NCBI RefSeq assembly: GCF_008087625.1
Contig: NZ_CP042997.1
Coordinates: 10,292,001-10,356,000, forward strand
Reading direction: 5' to 3'
Source of the DNA: Aquisphaera giovannonii
GTDB taxonomy: Bacteria; Planctomycetota; Planctomycetia; Isosphaerales; Isosphaeraceae
DNA: 64,000 nt
The translations under genes and the position numbers were made by a program. The notes beneath the pieces were generated by a model. It searched no databases, had not been told where the DNA came from, and worked only from the letters and a program-made list of their open reading frames with translations. How positions within the stretch are numbered: the first letter of the stretch is position 1; every line of letters starts with the position of its first letter. Of this stretch, positions 37,841 to 56,380 are shown in pieces.

Positions 37841-37928
37841 AGTTTTCCCCCGCCGGCCGTCGATCGATGCGGCCCCGGCCGGCCCGCCGGCGCGTGGGAT
37901 GATGAGGGCCAAGAACCCGGAATTTGGT

Positions 37929-38147
37929 GAGCCACGGATTCACACAGATAAACACAGATAAGACGGAGATGGGGGCGGGCAGGGGATGAGTCATCGCCCT
38001 GGCCGTGTTGCTGTCACCAAAACGATTTATGGTGTCATCTGCCGAATTGGCAGGGCTACGCGCCGCGATTACGCGAGCTACAAAAATTTAGATTGTTTTT
38101 TTCCTGCCTATCTTCTATCGGTGTGAATCTGTGTGAATCCGTGGCTC
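37929..38147. repeat. Element with 21-bp perfect terminal inverted repeats
   Basis: GAGCCACGGATTCACACAGA (37929 onwards) returns as its exact reverse complement at 38127-38147, 177 bases away. The arms extend imperfectly inward. The arm sequence belongs to a type seen as non-coding repeats in many environmental bacteria. No protein is encoded. It overlaps the AT-rich part of the candidate origin. Confidence 0.75.
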
Positions 38148-38277
38148 AAATCCTCCCCATCCGCGGCCCTCGCCGCCCGCGACCCCTCGCCCCGCCGTCC
38201 ATGGCCTTGACCGTCCCCCCGGTTTGCTCGATGATCCGGCTTTCCGGTCCGATCCTCCGAAGCAAGGATGCGTGGAG

Positions 38278-39912
38278 ATGCGATCCGACGCGACGACGCG
38301 GGGCCGGCTCGGCGGCTGGGGCCTCGCGTGGCTGGCGACGTTGACGGCCCTGGCCGTCGGCCCGGGGCTGGGGAGCTCCTCGCGGCTGACCTACCACGAG
38401 GCGTTCGTGGCGCAGGGGGCGCGGGAGATCCTCGACTCGGGGAGCTGGTGGGAGCCGAGGATCGGCGGCCTCCCCTGGCTGGAGAAGCCCCCCCTGCCCT
38501 TCTGGCTCGTCGCGGCGGCCGGGGCCTGCCGCGGCGAAGTCGACGCAACCGTGGCGCGGCTGCCGTCCGCCGTCGCGGCGTTCGGCCTGGTCCTGGGCGT
38601 CGCCCTGCTGGCGAGCCGCCGATACGGGCGCACCGTCGGCCTCCTCGCCGGATCCATCCAGGCGACCACCGCCTGGACCGTCCTCCGCGCCCGCCTCGCC
38701 GAGGCCGACCTGCTCCTGGCCGCCCTGGTCACCTGGAGCCTGCTGGCCTTTGATGGCATGCGTGACGGAGATGGCAGCGGGGAGGAGATCGAAGGAGGCG
38801 GGAACTTATCCCGTTTACGGGATTGGCGATTGGCCTTCTTTGGCTTTCTCGCCATGACGGCGCTGGTGAAGGGGCCGGGGTTCGGGGCGGCGCTGGTGCT
38901 CTCGGCCGCGGCGGGGGTGCTCGCCTGGGACCGGGACCGGCGGGCGGCGGGCCGGCTGCGGTCGCGGCCCGGGTGGATCGTCGCGGCGGCGGTCGCGGCG
39001 GCGTGGCCCCTGGCGATGGTCGCCCGGCACGGGCCGGGGGTGGCGTGGCTCTGGATCCTGCACGTCGCCGGCCGGTTCGGCGGGGGCGGCGCCCACGGGC
39101 CGTTCGCCGGGGAGTCCTGGCGGGACTACGCGCTGAACGTGCTGGCGCAGGCGTTGCCGTGGACGCCCCTGGCGGCGATCGGCGCCTGGAGGTCGCTCGG
39201 CCGGGCCCTGCGGGGCGACCGCGGGGACCGGCTGCTCTGGTGCTGGGCGGCGCTGCCGCTCGGCCTGGTCTCGGTCGCCAGCGCCCGCAACGCGCACTAC
39301 GCGATCCACGCCATGGTCCCGTGGTCGGTCTGGTCGGCGTGCGGCCTGCTGCGGGTGGCGGGCCGCCTGGCGGATCGCGGCTGGCCCCGGCCGCGGCTGG
39401 TGCGGGCGGCGGCCCTCGGCCTGCCGGGCCTGGCGGTGTCGTGGGGGCTGGGCTTCTGGCTGCTCGGCCCGTGGCTGGACCGCCGCGGCGCGGAGTGGGC
39501 CTTCTACGAGTCCGCCGGCCGGGCCGTCGGCGCGTCAGAGCCGGTCGCCTTCCTCTACGACGACTGGGACCGGGACCCCTACCCCACGCCCTTCGGCCCG
39601 ATCCCGCACGACCTGGCCGTCCGCCTCTTCTACCTGCGCCGCCCGGCGACCTGGCACTTCGACCCCGCCGGCCTGGCGGAGGTCGTCGATCGCCCCGCGT
39701 CCCCCGGCGCCGGCGAACAACCCTCCGCCGTCCTGATCGCCCGCGATCGCGACCTCCCCGCGCTCCGGGCCCTCGGCCGCGTCGAGGTCCTCGAGCGCGA
39801 CGCCGGCGTCCGCTGGGACCGCACCTACCTCCTCGCCCGCCTCCGCCCCATCGCCGAGCCTCCCGCCATCCCCGCCCTCGGCGCCGCGGGGGCGGACTCT
39901 GTGCGGCGTTGA
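38278..39912 (+). CDS. Integral membrane glycosyltransferase, GT39/ArnT-like
   Basis: A 544-residue protein. The ATG at 38278 follows GGAG and begins the basic MRSDATTRGR stretch before the first helix. About ten to twelve hydrophobic segments are present. The first periplasmic loop, 'LTYHEAFVAQGAREIL' then 'GSWWEPRIGGLPWLEKPPLPFW', matches the signature loop of polyprenyl-phosphate-sugar transferases (ArnT/PMT/GT39), with HE in place of the usual acidic pair. It should transfer a sugar from a lipid carrier to an envelope acceptor; donor and acceptor are unknown. The C-terminus 'AGVRWDRTYLLARL' is found again as a remnant 2 kb downstream. Confidence 0.85.
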   Translation: MRSDATTRGRLGGWGLAWLATLTALAVGPGLGSSSRLTYHEAFVAQGAREILDSGSWWEPRIGGLPWLEKPPLPFWLVAAAGACRGEVDATVARLPSAVAAFGLVLGVALLASRRYGRTVGLLAGSIQATTAWTVLRARLAEADLLLAALVTWSLLAFDGMRDGDGSGEEIEGGGNLSRLRDWRLAFFGFLAMTALVKGPGFGAALVLSAAAGVLAWDRDRRAAGRLRSRPGWIVAAAVAAAWPLAMVARHGPGVAWLWILHVAGRFGGGGAHGPFAGESWRDYALNVLAQALPWTPLAAIGAWRSLGRALRGDRGDRLLWCWAALPLGLVSVASARNAHYAIHAMVPWSVWSACGLLRVAGRLADRGWPRPRLVRAAALGLPGLAVSWGLGFWLLGPWLDRRGAEWAFYESAGRAVGASEPVAFLYDDWDRDPYPTPFGPIPHDLAVRLFYLRRPATWHFDPAGLAEVVDRPASPGAGEQPSAVLIARDRDLPALRALGRVEVLERDAGVRWDRTYLLARLRPIAEPPAIPALGAAGADSVRR

Positions 39913-40016: not shown

Positions 40017-41213
40017 ATGCTCAAGCAAGTTGACATCAAAAATTTCCGCTCGTGCTACGGCACCTCGGTCACGTGTGGCGAGGGCGTGTGCGCCATCGTG
40101 GGCAGGAACGGCGTGGGCAAGACCAATGTGCTGAAGTGCATCGACTGGGTCGCCTCATCCTCCGTCTCGACCGATCCCGTCAGGGTCGCCCAGGCGGGTA
40201 ATGCTTCGGAGGGGCTGGATGAGGTGTCCGCCACGCTTGGCCTTGAGCTCGACGGACGTCGATTCGAATACAGCCTGTGCATCCCATTGCCTGACGTGAG
40301 GCGACCGAGAAGAGCCGATTCCGTGCGCGACCTCCTGTCCTTGCTCGGCGACGCCGAGCGGACCGACATCTTCCGCCGGGAGGGGGAGAAGATCGTTGTC
40401 GCCGGCAGGCCCGAGCCGATTCGGGTCGCGAGGTCGGCCCCGTCGCTCGCCGCCCTGCTGTCGCTCCTGCCGGAAGACGACGAACTCAGGAGCCCGCTCC
40501 TGGCCGTTTCGTCCTTCTTCGCGGGCGTCCGCTATTACGGCCTGGAGGAGCCGGTGGCGTTCCGGGATTACGTCCCGGAAGAGGAGTACAACAACTGGCT
40601 CATCAAGTATCAGGGCGAGGGGCTCCCCACCAGCTCGGTCGCCCTTCGTCTCATCTACATGAAGCTCGAGGACACGGAGCGGTTCGAGGAGCTGGAGTCG
40701 CTCCTGGGGCCGGACGGCCTCGGGCTGCTCGAGGATTTCGACGTCCTCGAGCTGAACAGATCACTTCAACCGAACCTGCTGCCGGAGCTCGATACGAAGA
40801 CGAAGATATACCTGCCCGTGTTCACGCCGTCCGGGCAGATGGGCGGCGCCGGCAAGCCCTTCCCGTTCTCCGATCTATCCGCCGGGACTCGCCGGGTCAT
40901 CCGGATCGTGACTTCCCTCCTCTTCGACAAGCGGTCGTTGATGCTGATGGAGCAGCCGGAGGACTCGGTCCATCCGGGCCTGCTGCGCAAGCTGATCGAC
41001 ATGCTGAGGTCGTATTCGGACCGCTCGCAGATCCTCTTCACCACGCACTCCGCGGATGTGCTCGACATCCTCCGCCCCGAGGAGGTGCTGATGGCGACGG
41101 CCCAGGATGGCGGGACCTCCGTGCGGCCGCTCTCCCCGGATGAGGCCTCGCGAGCCCGGCGTTTCCTGAAAGACGAAGGATCGCTCTCCGACTTCCTCGA
41201 ACCCTTCGATTGA
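40017..41213 (+). CDS. AAA/ABC-type ATPase of an AAA + Toprim two-gene cassette
   Basis: A 398-residue protein. It begins MLKQVDIKNFRSCYG, as RecF/OLD-like ATPases do. Walker A is GRNGVGKT (residues 29-36). Near the end are 'FSDLSAGTRRVIRI' (signature-like), 'LMLMEQPEDSVHP' (Walker B, with Gln at the usual catalytic Glu), and 'QILFTTHSADVLDIL' (H-loop). The Gln variant also occurs in some related ATPases. The next gene, a DUF4276 protein, begins six bases after the stop. Similar ATPase + Toprim pairs (for example OLD, Gabija and PARIS types) act in phage defence, so that role is inferred. Codon use is less GC-extreme than that of its neighbours. Confidence 0.82.
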   Translation: MLKQVDIKNFRSCYGTSVTCGEGVCAIVGRNGVGKTNVLKCIDWVASSSVSTDPVRVAQAGNASEGLDEVSATLGLELDGRRFEYSLCIPLPDVRRPRRADSVRDLLSLLGDAERTDIFRREGEKIVVAGRPEPIRVARSAPSLAALLSLLPEDDELRSPLLAVSSFFAGVRYYGLEEPVAFRDYVPEEEYNNWLIKYQGEGLPTSSVALRLIYMKLEDTERFEELESLLGPDGLGLLEDFDVLELNRSLQPNLLPELDTKTKIYLPVFTPSGQMGGAGKPFPFSDLSAGTRRVIRIVTSLLFDKRSLMLMEQPEDSVHPGLLRKLIDMLRSYSDRSQILFTTHSADVLDILRPEEVLMATAQDGGTSVRPLSPDEASRARRFLKDEGSLSDFLEPFD

Positions 41214-41219
41214 TGACCC

Positions 41220-41786
41220 ATGGCGATGTTCGCTGTCCTGGCCGAGGATCGCTCCGACGTCGATTCGCTGGTGGTCCTGATCAAGCGTATCCGCGGGGTG
41301 GAGAACGCGACCATCCTGAAGAAGGGCTTCAGCGGTTGCGGCGAGCTCTGCCGCAAGGCAGGGAGCCATGTCCGCGATTTCGCCGAGAAGGGCGCGACGC
41401 ACTTCATCGTCTGCCACGATTCGGACGGGAATCCCCCGGCCGAGGTGAGGAAGAAGGTCCGTGAGAGCATAGCGGCGAGGACCGCCGTGCCGGAAGACTG
41501 CTGCATCGTCGTGCCCGTCCAGGAGCTGGAGGCCTGGATCATCGCCGACGAGGAGGCGATCAAGAAAGCGATACCCTCGCTGTCGATCAAGCCGGTGGCT
41601 CGCCCCGAGACGGTGCCCAGCCCCAAGGAGTGGCTCGTCGATGAGTCCAGGCGGGGGCGTTCCCGCCCCCTCTACGTCCCGACCATCCACAACGCGAAGG
41701 TCGCGGCGCATCTGGATCTGAAGAAGGTCGAGAAGAAGTGCCCTTCCTTCAGCGACCTGGTCGCATTCGTCGGGGGCACTTCGTGA
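41220..41786 (+). CDS. DUF4276 (Toprim-like) protein, partner of the ATPase
   Basis: A 188-residue protein. 'FAVLAEDRSDVDSL' gives the Toprim-like Glu/Asp (E9, D10) and 'HFIVCHDSDGNP' gives a DxD motif (about 62-64). 'VPVQELEAWIIADEEAI' is a DUF4276 hallmark. The C-terminal 'NAKVAAHLDLKKVEKKCPSFSDLV' matches the family end. It is predicted to be a metal-dependent nuclease or phosphotransfer module regulated by the ATPase encoded six bases upstream. Activity has to be inferred from the fold. It is not long enough to be a fused OLD protein. Confidence 0.8.
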   Translation: MAMFAVLAEDRSDVDSLVVLIKRIRGVENATILKKGFSGCGELCRKAGSHVRDFAEKGATHFIVCHDSDGNPPAEVRKKVRESIAARTAVPEDCCIVVPVQELEAWIIADEEAIKKAIPSLSIKPVARPETVPSPKEWLVDESRRGRSRPLYVPTIHNAKVAAHLDLKKVEKKCPSFSDLVAFVGGTS

Positions 41787-41804: not shown

Positions 41805-41868
41805 TTGTTGGAAGGCGTCCTCGCCCGCGCCGCCGGAGTCCGATGGGACCGCACCTACCTCGAGACTT
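41805..41868 (+). pseudogene. Remnant of a glycosyltransferase 3' end
   Basis: These bases encode LEGVLARAAGVRWDRTYLET, which closely matches VEVLERDAGVRWDRTYLLA at the end of the GT39 gene at 39.8 kb; the last 20 or so bases are nearly identical. Nothing upstream belongs to a glycosyltransferase, so only the end of a second copy survives, directly after the AAA/DUF4276 cassette. Confidence 0.65.
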
Positions 41869-41954: not shown

Positions 41955-42278
41955 TCACCCGGAGATCAGCACCTCGTTGAACTGGATGACGGGCTCGATG
42001 TCCGTGTAGTTGGGCATGTCGCCCTGGAGCGCGGGGGCGTTGGGCATGAAGGCGGCCAGGAAGTCCTCGAGGGAATCGAAGAGGAAGTGGCACATGGCGA
42101 CGTAGGCGGGCCTCGACCCCGGCTCCGCGCCGCCGAGCCCGCGCTCCACGGAGACGCCCCGGTAGCCCGGGTGCGCGCCCAGGAGCCCGATGGACATGGG
42201 CATGTGGGTCTCGACGTAGTAAGGGAAGTCGAACCGGGAGCCGTCGCGATTCGGATAGAGGATGCTGATGCGGATCAT
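41955..42278 (-). CDS. EthD-family protein
   Basis: A 107-residue protein. The ATG at 42278 has GAGG just upstream, and the family sequence starts there (MIRISILYPN). It shows the EthD-type ferredoxin-like pattern: 'FDFPYYVETHMPMSIGLLG', 'GYRGVSVERGL', 'AYVAMCHFLFDSLEDFLAAFMP', ending 'MPNYTDIEPVIQFNEVLI'. EthD-like dimeric alpha/beta-barrel proteins include small oxygenases and proteins of unknown role. The substrate is unknown. A truncated second copy occurs near 56.0 kb. Confidence 0.85.
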   Translation of the reverse strand: MIRISILYPNRDGSRFDFPYYVETHMPMSIGLLGAHPGYRGVSVERGLGGAEPGSRPAYVAMCHFLFDSLEDFLAAFMPNAPALQGDMPNYTDIEPVIQFNEVLISG

Positions 42279-42450: not shown

Positions 42451-42681
42451 TCAGCATCCGCCGCGATCTCGGCCGGGCCGCCCCGCGTCTTCAACCTCCG
42501 GCGACTCCTCCGGCGGCAGCTCGATCTCGTCGGGCGAGAACTCGAGGACTTCGCCATCCCTCCAGAGCAGGATCGGCGTGCCGAACTGCCGGGCCCGGCG
42601 CACGACCTGGCGGGCCGCGCGGCGGAAGGCGGCGTCGGCCAGTGCCCCCAGGCGCGATCGGTCGATCTCGGGTTCAGGCAT
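42451..42681 (-). CDS. Small protein after the zeta-toxin remnant
   Basis: About 76 residues, starting MPEPEIDRSRLG at 42681 and overlapping the end of the remnant gene by eight bases. A basic helix ('AFRRAARQVVRRARQFG') is followed by 'TPILLWRDGEVLEFSPDEIEL' and an acidic tail. It is not recognised. The overlap suggests it was the partner of the upstream toxin-like gene, possibly an antitoxin. Confidence 0.55.
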   Translation of the reverse strand: MPEPEIDRSRLGALADAAFRRAARQVVRRARQFGTPILLWRDGEVLEFSPDEIELPPEESPEVEDAGRPGRDRGGC

Positions 42682-43012
42682 CGGAGCCGCCTCCCCAGCG
42701 GGCATGGATCACGCGGAATCGTTCCGGCTGGGACGTGATGACGAGACGACCGTCGCCACTGGCAATCTCGGCCGGAGGCAGCGCCATGCCATCATACAGA
42801 TACCAGGCGTCCGATCGCGGCGCGTATTCGCGGAAGAAGTTCCGGAGCCCGGCTTCGAAGCGGCGGCGGATCGTGGCCTCGGGGATGTCGTGGCCCCCTT
42901 CGCGAACGCGGTTCGCCACGCGCCGGACGGCCATGTCGGCGTCGGGGAGCCGGAGGAAGAAGAGGGAGGAAGAAGAGGGCCACGCGATCACTTCGACTTG
43001 GCCGGGACGGGG
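42674..43012 (-). pseudogene. C-terminal remnant of a zeta-toxin-like kinase
   Basis: The visible part, 'SLFFLRLPDADMAVRRVANR', 'GGHDIPEATIRRRFEAGLRNFF', 'YAPRSDAWYLYDG', matches the second half of zeta-toxin/COG4185 P-loop proteins. The N-terminal half with the Walker A motif, which binds ATP and is essential, is missing, and the upstream bases do not encode it. It is therefore a truncated, probably inactive gene. Its end overlaps the small gene downstream. Confidence 0.65.
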
Positions 43013-43094: not shown

Positions 43095-43367
43095 ATGGAC
43101 CTCAAGAGCGTACTCTCCGAGATCCAAACCTGGCCGGTCGAGGAACGGATGCGCCTCGTTGAGGAGGTTCGGGGCGGAATGCCCAATCAAGGCAGCAAGT
43201 CCGAGACCGCGGAAGACCGGGACCGCGATCCGGGCCGTGGGCCAATGGCGACGAGCTCAGGCCTGATCGGCGCCATGCGTGAGGATGCCGATCTGCTCGA
43301 GCAGGTCACCGAGGACATCATGGAGAGCCGTCGCAACCGGACATTGAGGCAGATGCCGGATGCATAA
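43095..43367 (+). CDS. Antitoxin paired with a PIN toxin
   Basis: A 90-residue protein with a strong ribosome site (AGGAGGA). The N-terminus, 'LKSVLSEIQTWPVEERMRLVEEV', resembles the putative addiction-module component family (LPVEER.eL.E pattern). A charged linker leads to 'SGLIGAMREDADLLEQVTEDIM', a helix seen in PIN-associated antitoxins that wrap the toxin. The gene overlaps the toxin gene by eight bases. It probably neutralises the toxin and may repress the pair. Confidence 0.75.
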   Translation: MDLKSVLSEIQTWPVEERMRLVEEVRGGMPNQGSKSETAEDRDRDPGRGPMATSSGLIGAMREDADLLEQVTEDIMESRRNRTLRQMPDA

Positions 43368-43779
43368 GGTTCTCCTCGACACCGACATCCTCTCCGAGGT
43401 CCTCCGCGGCGTAAATCCGACCGTGGCCGGCCATGCCGGCGCGTACCGGAGCGTGTTCGGACACTTCACGATCTCCGTCATCACCGTCATGGAGATGGCG
43501 AAGGGCTTCCAGAAGGCCGGGAGGCCGGAGAAGATCGCGGCCCTGGCCACCCTCCTTGCCACCGAGGAGATCGTGGATTTCGACCGGGCGGCCGCGGACC
43601 AGGCGGGCCGCATCTGGGGGGACCTCGAGCGCACCGGGCAGCCCATCGGCCTGGCCGATCCGATGATCGCGGCCGTCGCCCTGCGCCACGGCTTGGAGCT
43701 GGTCACCGGCAACACCGCCCATTACCAGAGGGTCCAGCAGCTCGGCTATCCGCTGACGCTCGCGAACTGGCGAAACTGA
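43360..43779 (+). CDS. PIN-domain ribonuclease toxin (VapC-like)
   Basis: A 139-residue protein. Metal-binding acids: D7 and D9 in 'VLLDTDILSEVLRG', Glu in 'ITVMEMAKG', Asp in 'PIGLADPMIAAVAL', with 'LVTGNTAHYQRV' closing the fold. This is the VapC/FitB-type pattern and all residues are present. It is predicted to cleave RNA when released from the overlapping antitoxin. It is distinct in sequence from the PIN toxin at 27.7 kb. Confidence 0.88.
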   Translation: MHKVLLDTDILSEVLRGVNPTVAGHAGAYRSVFGHFTISVITVMEMAKGFQKAGRPEKIAALATLLATEEIVDFDRAAADQAGRIWGDLERTGQPIGLADPMIAAVALRHGLELVTGNTAHYQRVQQLGYPLTLANWRN

Positions 43780-55891: not shown

Positions 55892-55897
55892 AGCCCG

Positions 55898-56053
55898 GGC
55901 TTGGAGCCGGGATCGAAGCCCGCCTACGTCGCGATGTGCCACTTCCTCTCCGGCTCCCTCGAAGATTTCCCGGCCGCCTTCGAGCCCGACGCCCCCGCGC
56001 TCCGCGGCGACATGCCCAATGACACGGACATCGAGCCCGTCATCTTCCGGGCC
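55898..56053 (+). pseudogene. Truncated second copy of an EthD gene
   Basis: EPGSKPAYVAMCHFL...SLEDF.AAF...DMPN.TDIEPVI closely matches residues about 50-100 of the intact EthD protein at 42 kb; the DNA is also visibly similar. The first half is missing and no start is present, so it is a remnant. Confidence 0.75.
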
Positions 56054-56380
56054 GAGGTCGTCGAGCGATGCGGGGGCGAGCGGGAGGAGGAGAAGGAGCA
56101 CCGGACCTTCCGGGTGCCCGGGTCGGGATGGATGCTGATGCGTTGCTTCGACCCGCGCGGCATCTCCCTCGACGGCAAGCGGCCGGAGGACCTCCCGGCC
56201 TTCGAGGCGATGGCCGAGGCGGTCGGCGCATGGCCGGTCGGCCGGAGATACCGCCGGGTCCGCCCGCGTCGCCGGCTCCGTCGGGGGCGTGCCGGAACCG
56301 GCGTCGCGGCGGGGGCGGCCCGCGCGGCCGCGGGACGGCGGGCGGTCGCAGCCGTCCGGACGCCGCGAGGCGTCTCGTGC

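Follow-up and report, generated by a model that had tools for sequence, protein, structure and literature searches.

A HEC-01-type pair of ATPase and DUF4276 genes with an altered ATPase site, compared with known ATPase-nuclease systems

The closest described arrangement is HEC-01, the 'Hma-embedded candidate' 01 of PADLOC, i.e., an AAA ATPase combined with a DUF4276 protein. The name is used in published annotation (PMC12724379). HEC-01 is a candidate system; our literature search found no protection assay for it, and a further search found no paper naming DUF4276.

In PARIS, the ATPase AriA holds the nuclease AriB until a phage trigger frees AriB to cut tRNA (PMC9122126, PMC11455837, PMC12409363). 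GajA has ATP bound but has likely lost hydrolysis, and the bound ATP keeps its Toprim domain closed (PMC12796447). Whether ATPase-nuclease defence needs ATP hydrolysis is answered differently by different systems. GajA and Retron-Eco8, where cleavage is independent of hydrolysis, suggest that it does not (PMC12796447, PMC12887533), while Septu, whose Walker mutants lose protection, points in the opposite direction (PMC13096335).

The gene pair, its distribution and its surroundings

We studied a window of 64,000 nt from a genome of 10.5 Mb. Among the contigs compared, its close relatives belong to the Planctomycetales. The cassette of interest comprises the following features.

40017..41213, + strand: OLD/SMC-type ABC ATPase (HEC-01A-like, AAA_21), P0001, 398 aa (ORF, Pfam, PADLOC, AlphaFold2 model)
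41214..41219, + strand: 6-nt intergenic gap from the ATPase gene to the DUF4276 gene (ORF coordinates)
41220..41786, + strand: DUF4276 protein, predicted Toprim-type nuclease (HEC-01B-like), P0002, 188 aa (ORF, Pfam, PADLOC, AlphaFold2 fold)

The original prediction had described a RecF/OLD-like ATPase and a small partner six bases apart, both less GC-extreme than their surroundings. These statements agree with our results. Both ORFs are present at the positions above. P0001 matches Pfam AAA_21 (E 3.6e-28) and AAA_15 (E 2.8e-17) with Walker A, signature and H-loop intact, and P0002 matches DUF4276 (PF14103; E 2.5e-12, above cut-off). The GC content of the cassette is 64% compared to mostly 70-78% in its surroundings, which is also reflected in the third codon positions (GC of 0.85-0.87 for the cassette genes vs. 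0.94-0.96 for neighbouring native genes). The prediction had further considered the pair the best candidate for an undescribed system, which does not hold, since PADLOC already lists the combination as candidate HEC-01.

Our assignment to HEC-01 rests on PADLOC HMM scores and gene adjacency: model PDLC04178 (HEC-01A) matches P0001 with E 3.8e-26, where the AriA model is slightly better (E 4.1e-28), model PDLC04196 (HEC-01B) matches P0002 with E 1.3e-15, and both genes lie on one strand separated by the 6-nt gap. That is, HEC-01 and the cassette share the same two gene families, their order and their tight spacing. They differ in the ATPase of the clade introduced below, which carries Q/H313 plus D/E316. 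As a side observation, PADLOC model PDLC04143 is named HEC-01A and matches DUF4276, while PDLC04144 is named HEC-01B and matches the ATPase, i.e., the names look swapped.

The operon layout was tallied for 60 loci that carry a DUF4276 gene, obtained by searching the family and the phylum. Of these, 58/60 have an ATPase ORF of about 400 aa, which is located tight upstream in the same orientation in about 56/60, with many pairs overlapping by 4 nt (start/stop overlap). The remaining 2/60 without ATPase ORF are fragments or lie at a contig end. Given this recurrent order and tight spacing as well as the 6-nt gap, the two genes can be read as one operon.

Within the family, DUF4276 is found in 26/45 genomes and a close copy of the pair in 8/45, while none of 14 control genomes has DUF4276. 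The sister species (G001) carries an orthologous pair (74% and 86% identity) in the same place, i.e., after the same glycosyltransferase gene. Respective dN/dS values are 0.27 (ATPase) and 0.20 (nuclease) using NG86 and 0.11 and 0.05 using YN00, where synonymous sites are near saturation for YN00. Both cassette genes are thus under purifying selection. Because of this selection, the orthology and the shared place, the pair is more than a chance adjacency. In a further genome of the same genus (G002), the glycosyltransferase gene is next to dnaN and the pair is absent. The cassette is a mobile, selected two-gene unit, and horizontal acquisition is the best explanation of its presence.

The following features flank the cassette.

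39787..39831, + strand: 45-nt direct repeat, copy 1, in the upstream PMT-type glycosyltransferase gene at its 3' end (89% identity between copies)
41817..41861, + strand: 45-nt direct repeat, copy 2, just past the nuclease gene (89% identity between copies)
42454-42991, - strand: remnants of a zeta-toxin-like gene, two short ORFs (longer gene in the sister species, L107:6686-7363)
43360-43779: PIN-domain gene

The core motif of the 45-nt repeat is absent from 100 shuffles. No second copy was found in the sister species, which has the same pair. We read the second copy as an insertion or duplication scar.

The close neighbours in the window are mostly housekeeping-like (dnaN, PMT-type glycosyltransferase, EthD, PPC, PSCyt). 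The predicted location among toxin-antitoxin genes and gene remnants therefore holds in part, i.e., for the PIN gene and the zeta-toxin-like remnants, but not for the other close neighbours. A local defence island in the window is likewise unsupported. Among the neighbours, the EthD-domain gene (41958-42266, - strand) is absent from all other genomes of the 45 in the family, while the window contains a second, partial copy of it at about 55895-56059 (76%). A 33-nt inverted repeat (37928-37960 / 38116-38148, 91%), AT-richer than its surroundings, is located between dnaN and the glycosyltransferase gene. Scans for RNA families, tRNAs, promoters and terminators found nothing, and annotated phage and plasmid collections gave no match to the cassette.

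The surroundings of related pairs differ from a purely housekeeping context, which the original prediction had named as speaking against a defence role. Relatives adjoin genes of Shedu, of type IV restriction, of the NACHT kind or for toxins, and some lie in prophages. The pair of locus L067 (82% nuclease identity) is flanked by SduA of Shedu (E 8.7e-67) on one side and by a type IV restriction helicase (E 6.7e-248) on the other. Other pairs neighbour ParE and NACHT genes (L160), Fic and an RT-associated metallo-beta-lactamase (L162), BrnT (L165) or, in the sister species, a zeta toxin. Near 15 pairs, PADLOC families number 135 vs. 21 in control regions of the same contigs, a crude tally that can serve as a hint only, because PD-T4-6 kinase models, and possibly additional pairs, raise the count.

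Prophage cargo positions are typical of phage-exclusion genes, e.g., P2 old and PARIS. Here, three viral contigs (L079, L167, L169) carry pairs of the same ATPase clade as the cassette. The pair of L079 is located between the terminase large subunit and Rha/portal genes and shows a GC3 of 0.26-0.31 vs. mostly 0.6-0.8 in the genes of that phage. The pairs of L167 and L169 adjoin an integrase at trimmed provirus edges, such that these two copies could be host-side.

Active sites of the two proteins

The AlphaFold2 model of P0002 has a mean pLDDT of 95.4. Among solved structures, it is matched best by the Toprim C-terminal region of the B. pseudomallei OLD protein (BpOLD, 6nk8; Z 9.6, rmsd 4.4, 167 aligned), in line with the small Toprim-like partner originally predicted. 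Lower matches are the OLD proteins of X. campestris (XccOLD, Z 8.9) and T. scotoductus (Z 7.8), PARIS (8ux9, Z 7.5) and GajA (Z 6.9), where unrelated Rossmann-type folds also reach Z 7-8, such that the fold alone is no proof of Toprim. When PDB sequences were searched with a profile of the nuclease, all matches were at chance level. The kinship to Toprim proteins is visible in the modelled fold only.

In BpOLD, metal A is bound by E400, D455 and D457 and metal B by E404, T506 and E508, while K562 serves catalysis (PMC6755086). In alignment A5 (17 subfamily members), P0002 residues E9, D67, D69, E102, E104 and K136 are invariant and D13 is nearly so; E9 and D13 are also conserved in alignment A9. 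We propose the following correspondence.

41244..41258, + strand: Toprim E9 + D13, proposed counterparts of BpOLD E400 + E404 (conserved in A5/A9)
41418..41426, + strand: Toprim DxD motif, D67 + D69, for BpOLD D455 and D457 (invariant in A5)
41523..41531, + strand: E102 + E104 at a helix start, proposed counterparts of BpOLD T506 + E508 (invariant in A5)
41625..41627, + strand: K136, proposed counterpart of the catalytic BpOLD K562 (invariant in A5)

The residue order and the i/i+2 and i/i+4 spacings agree between both proteins, and the mapping rests on order, spacing and fold rather than on superposed coordinates. P0002 shows the two-metal Toprim set (E, E/D, DxD, E, K) of class 2 OLD / Gabija. 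Since its invariant residues match the BpOLD set, the Toprim assignment is strengthened, and DUF4276 thereby gains a predicted activity, i.e., that of a two-metal Toprim nuclease.

P0001 is modelled as an OLD/SMC-type ABC ATPase (pLDDT 85.5). Its closest solved folds are PtuA proteins of Septu and retrons (Z 21-23, best 23.4), followed by SMC and Rad50, with AriA at Z 19.2. Its motifs are located as follows.

40101..40124, + strand: Walker A GRNGVGKT, residues 29-36, intact (G29, N31, G34, K35 invariant in alignment A6)
40875..40889, + strand: ABC signature LSAGT, residues 287-291; A/V/F/Y at 289 in the clade in place of the usual acid (clade sequences)
40950..40964, + strand: Walker B end and D-loop start, E312-Q313-P314-E315-D316 (clade sequences, ABCA4 alignment)
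40953..40955, + strand: Q313 codon CAG, Gln replacing the catalytic Glu (sequence)
40962..40964, + strand: D316 codon, first D-loop position (sequence)
41046..41048, + strand: H-loop (switch) histidine H344, intact (invariant in A6 and A10)

At the Walker B end, the sequence is MEQPED, i.e., glutamine Q313 is found where the catalytic glutamate is expected. When the PDB sequences are searched with this region, the top matches are ABCA4 entries with Q, which outrank those with E (26.9 vs. 24.4 bits); this confirms the alignment of position 313. The Q-bearing entries are laboratory E-to-Q mutants. This altered ATPase site is an unusual feature and was absent from the original prediction.

The change extends beyond P0001. 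In the first ten clade members gathered (34-100% identity), position 313 is always Q or H, compared to E in the nearest outgroup (L069); the two added viral members L167 and L169 both have Q. In the resulting clade of 12 (the Q/H clade), which includes all three viral copies, Q313 is found in 9 and H313 in 3 sequences, each with an acid three residues on. All members of this clade have also lost the acid normally found at signature position 289. We further compared 76 ATPases paired with DUF4276, which are related sequences and not independent events: E313 is present in 62/76, with an acid at 316 in 0/62, and Q or H in 13/76, with D/E at 316 in 13/13 (12 D, 1 E). A different motif in this region is observed for 1/76. 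A quite different Walker B/D-loop, MIDDIGEGLD, is seen in an ATPase adjoining DUF4276 at locus L031 (G022).

Most Q/H sequences (12/13) fall into one clade with a FastTree support of 0.947. The respective IQ-TREE UFBoot value is 67, or 99 with an E-bearing sister added, where site 313 was excluded from both. As the clade support is good by FastTree and weak by IQ-TREE, one or two Glu losses within the clade are both possible. The thirteenth sequence with Q/H and acid (L032) is placed outside the clade, which points to at least two origins of the coupled 313/316 change. What is new here is the ATPase of the Q/H clade, which is without the catalytic Walker B Glu and has gained an acid three residues later. 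Three further AAA+DUF4276 pairs of the same genome (C1 near 897,000, 1,401,000 and 1,991,000; L118, L119, L120) are outside of this clade.

Proposed mechanism and rival explanations

We consider an anti-phage function of the cassette likely. This reading is the best supported, because the fold, the active site as well as the defence-gene neighbours and prophage contexts of relatives agree. The same evidence upholds the predicted resemblance to ATPase-Toprim defence pairs, though not for an undescribed system. With somewhat less confidence, we favour a horizontally acquired HEC-01-type anti-phage cassette in which an ATP-bound ATPase gates a Toprim nuclease, resulting in abortive infection. The general mechanism is, on balance, also the one we would expect.

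The gating of P0002 by P0001 is proposed by analogy with PARIS (AriA/AriB) and GajA. That is, P0001 would form an ATP-bound assembly that senses infection and, together with ATP, would hold the Toprim nuclease inactive or poised, presumably within a complex. A phage-made trigger or a drop of ATP may then release or activate P0002. The freed nuclease would cut tRNA/RNA or DNA by two-metal catalysis, which would arrest growth such that the phage cannot spread. With Q/H313 and an acid at the D-loop start, the ATPase probably serves mainly as a switch that binds ATP and whose hydrolysis is slight or redesigned, i.e., fast hydrolysis has probably been lost in the Q/H clade. A Q/H313 complex would keep its ATP for long, and the switch would be the loss of ATP or the binding of a trigger instead of hydrolysis. 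In its most specific form, which we put forward tentatively, an ABC motor was remodelled into an ATP latch that hydrolyses slowly or not at all, with E313 lost and the D-loop acid gained at least twice, and the state of the latch (ATP bound or lost) arms the nuclease. The Q/H clade represents a natural experiment, since it has made and kept the substitution by which experimenters trap ABC proteins in the ATP-bound state, here with a second change three residues on.

The same residues can be read differently. D316 might replace E313 as a relocated carboxylate and useful ATP hydrolysis be kept, such that P0001 would hydrolyse ATP as an ordinary sensor of the PARIS-like kind does, from a site that has been rearranged. 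The strictness of the swap (D/E with Q/H in 13/13, no acid with E in 62/62) fits this idea, as does its repetition in L032 outside of the main clade. Furthermore, the OLD protein Cran1 tolerates alanine at either Walker B glutamate with its ATPase activity intact (PMC12796447), and Q313 therefore need not abolish hydrolysis. Nevertheless, position 316 is the first D-loop residue and not the usual catalytic position, and the signature acid at 289 is likewise lost throughout the clade, so we regard hydrolysis by a relocated carboxylate as rather unlikely. We find it hardly credible that the catalytic residue was lost by degeneration of a decaying gene pair. The nearby gene remnants and the repeat scar would be in its favour, but Q/H is fixed across members down to about 34% identity, the genes are under purifying selection and the Toprim site is complete. 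Degeneration of the ATPase is rejected, given that all 12 members, divergent as they are, show the change and keep every other motif.

Other readings concern the role of the pair. As a chromosomal toxin-antitoxin or stress module, its ATPase would restrain the nuclease and the pair would persist by addiction rather than by phage defence. Toxin-antitoxin neighbours are indeed frequent (PIN, ParE, Fic, BrnT, zeta), and a toxin-antitoxin description has been given for PARIS (PMC11455837). Deleting either PARIS gene was, however, non-toxic (PMC9122126), and the prophage cargo positions and the Shedu/restriction neighbours point to defence, which renders such a module improbable. Still far less probable is a pair of SMC/RecF type that maintains the genome or repairs DNA in the cell and has no defence role. 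The ATPase fold is common to SMC, Rad50 and RecF, and one archaeal OLD ATPase is known to act in the cell cycle (PMC12796447). However, the pair is distributed very patchily, occurs in several divergent versions per genome, is carried by viruses and has an atypical composition, which is at odds with such a function.

Relation to known systems

PARIS is similar to the cassette in several respects. It also encodes ATPase (ABC type, AriA) and Toprim protein (AriB, DUF4435) by separate genes in one operon, the ATPase fold is similar (AriA Z 19.2), the Toprim fold is related (8ux9 Z 7.5), and viral or satellite carriage is found as in the cassette clade. An ATPase of the AAA_15/AAA_21 kind, as in AriA, is present (PADLOC AriA E 4.1e-28; fold as above). 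In contrast, the PARIS partner is DUF4435 with about 300 aa, while the cassette has DUF4276 with 188 aa. There is no sequence match between the nucleases, and the catalytic Glu is lost in the cassette ATPase. The published PARIS detection rule requires the DUF4435 Toprim partner AriB (PMC9122126). Here, Pfam gives DUF4276 only and PADLOC no AriB match, and we reject PARIS membership.

With class 2 OLD / GajA, the cassette shares the closest fold of P0002 (Toprim region of BpOLD/XccOLD) and the same metal-binding set, and GajA, too, binds ATP and has likely lost its hydrolysis. Class 2 OLD / Gabija proteins, however, combine ATPase and Toprim in one chain, whereas the cassette has separate genes, and no GajB helicase was found among the neighbours tested. 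For Septu and retrons, PtuA is the best fold match of the cassette ATPase (Z 21-23), but its partner is the HNH nuclease PtuB and not a Toprim-type protein. The cassette partner is DUF4276 with a Toprim-type fold, which does not fit Septu. MADS comprises a homologous ATPase and a small partner (MAD3/MAD4; NCBIfam NF047739, NF047734). Respective scores of 48.6 of 420 and 19.6 of 160 bits are far under the curated cut-offs, and the cassette genes are thus not called as MAD3/MAD4.

The cassette clade adds prophage-borne members to the ATPase-DUF4276 kind. Compared to the systems above, the cassette is probably PARIS-like in its action without being PARIS, i.e., a variant of the known candidate HEC-01 with a rebuilt ATPase site.
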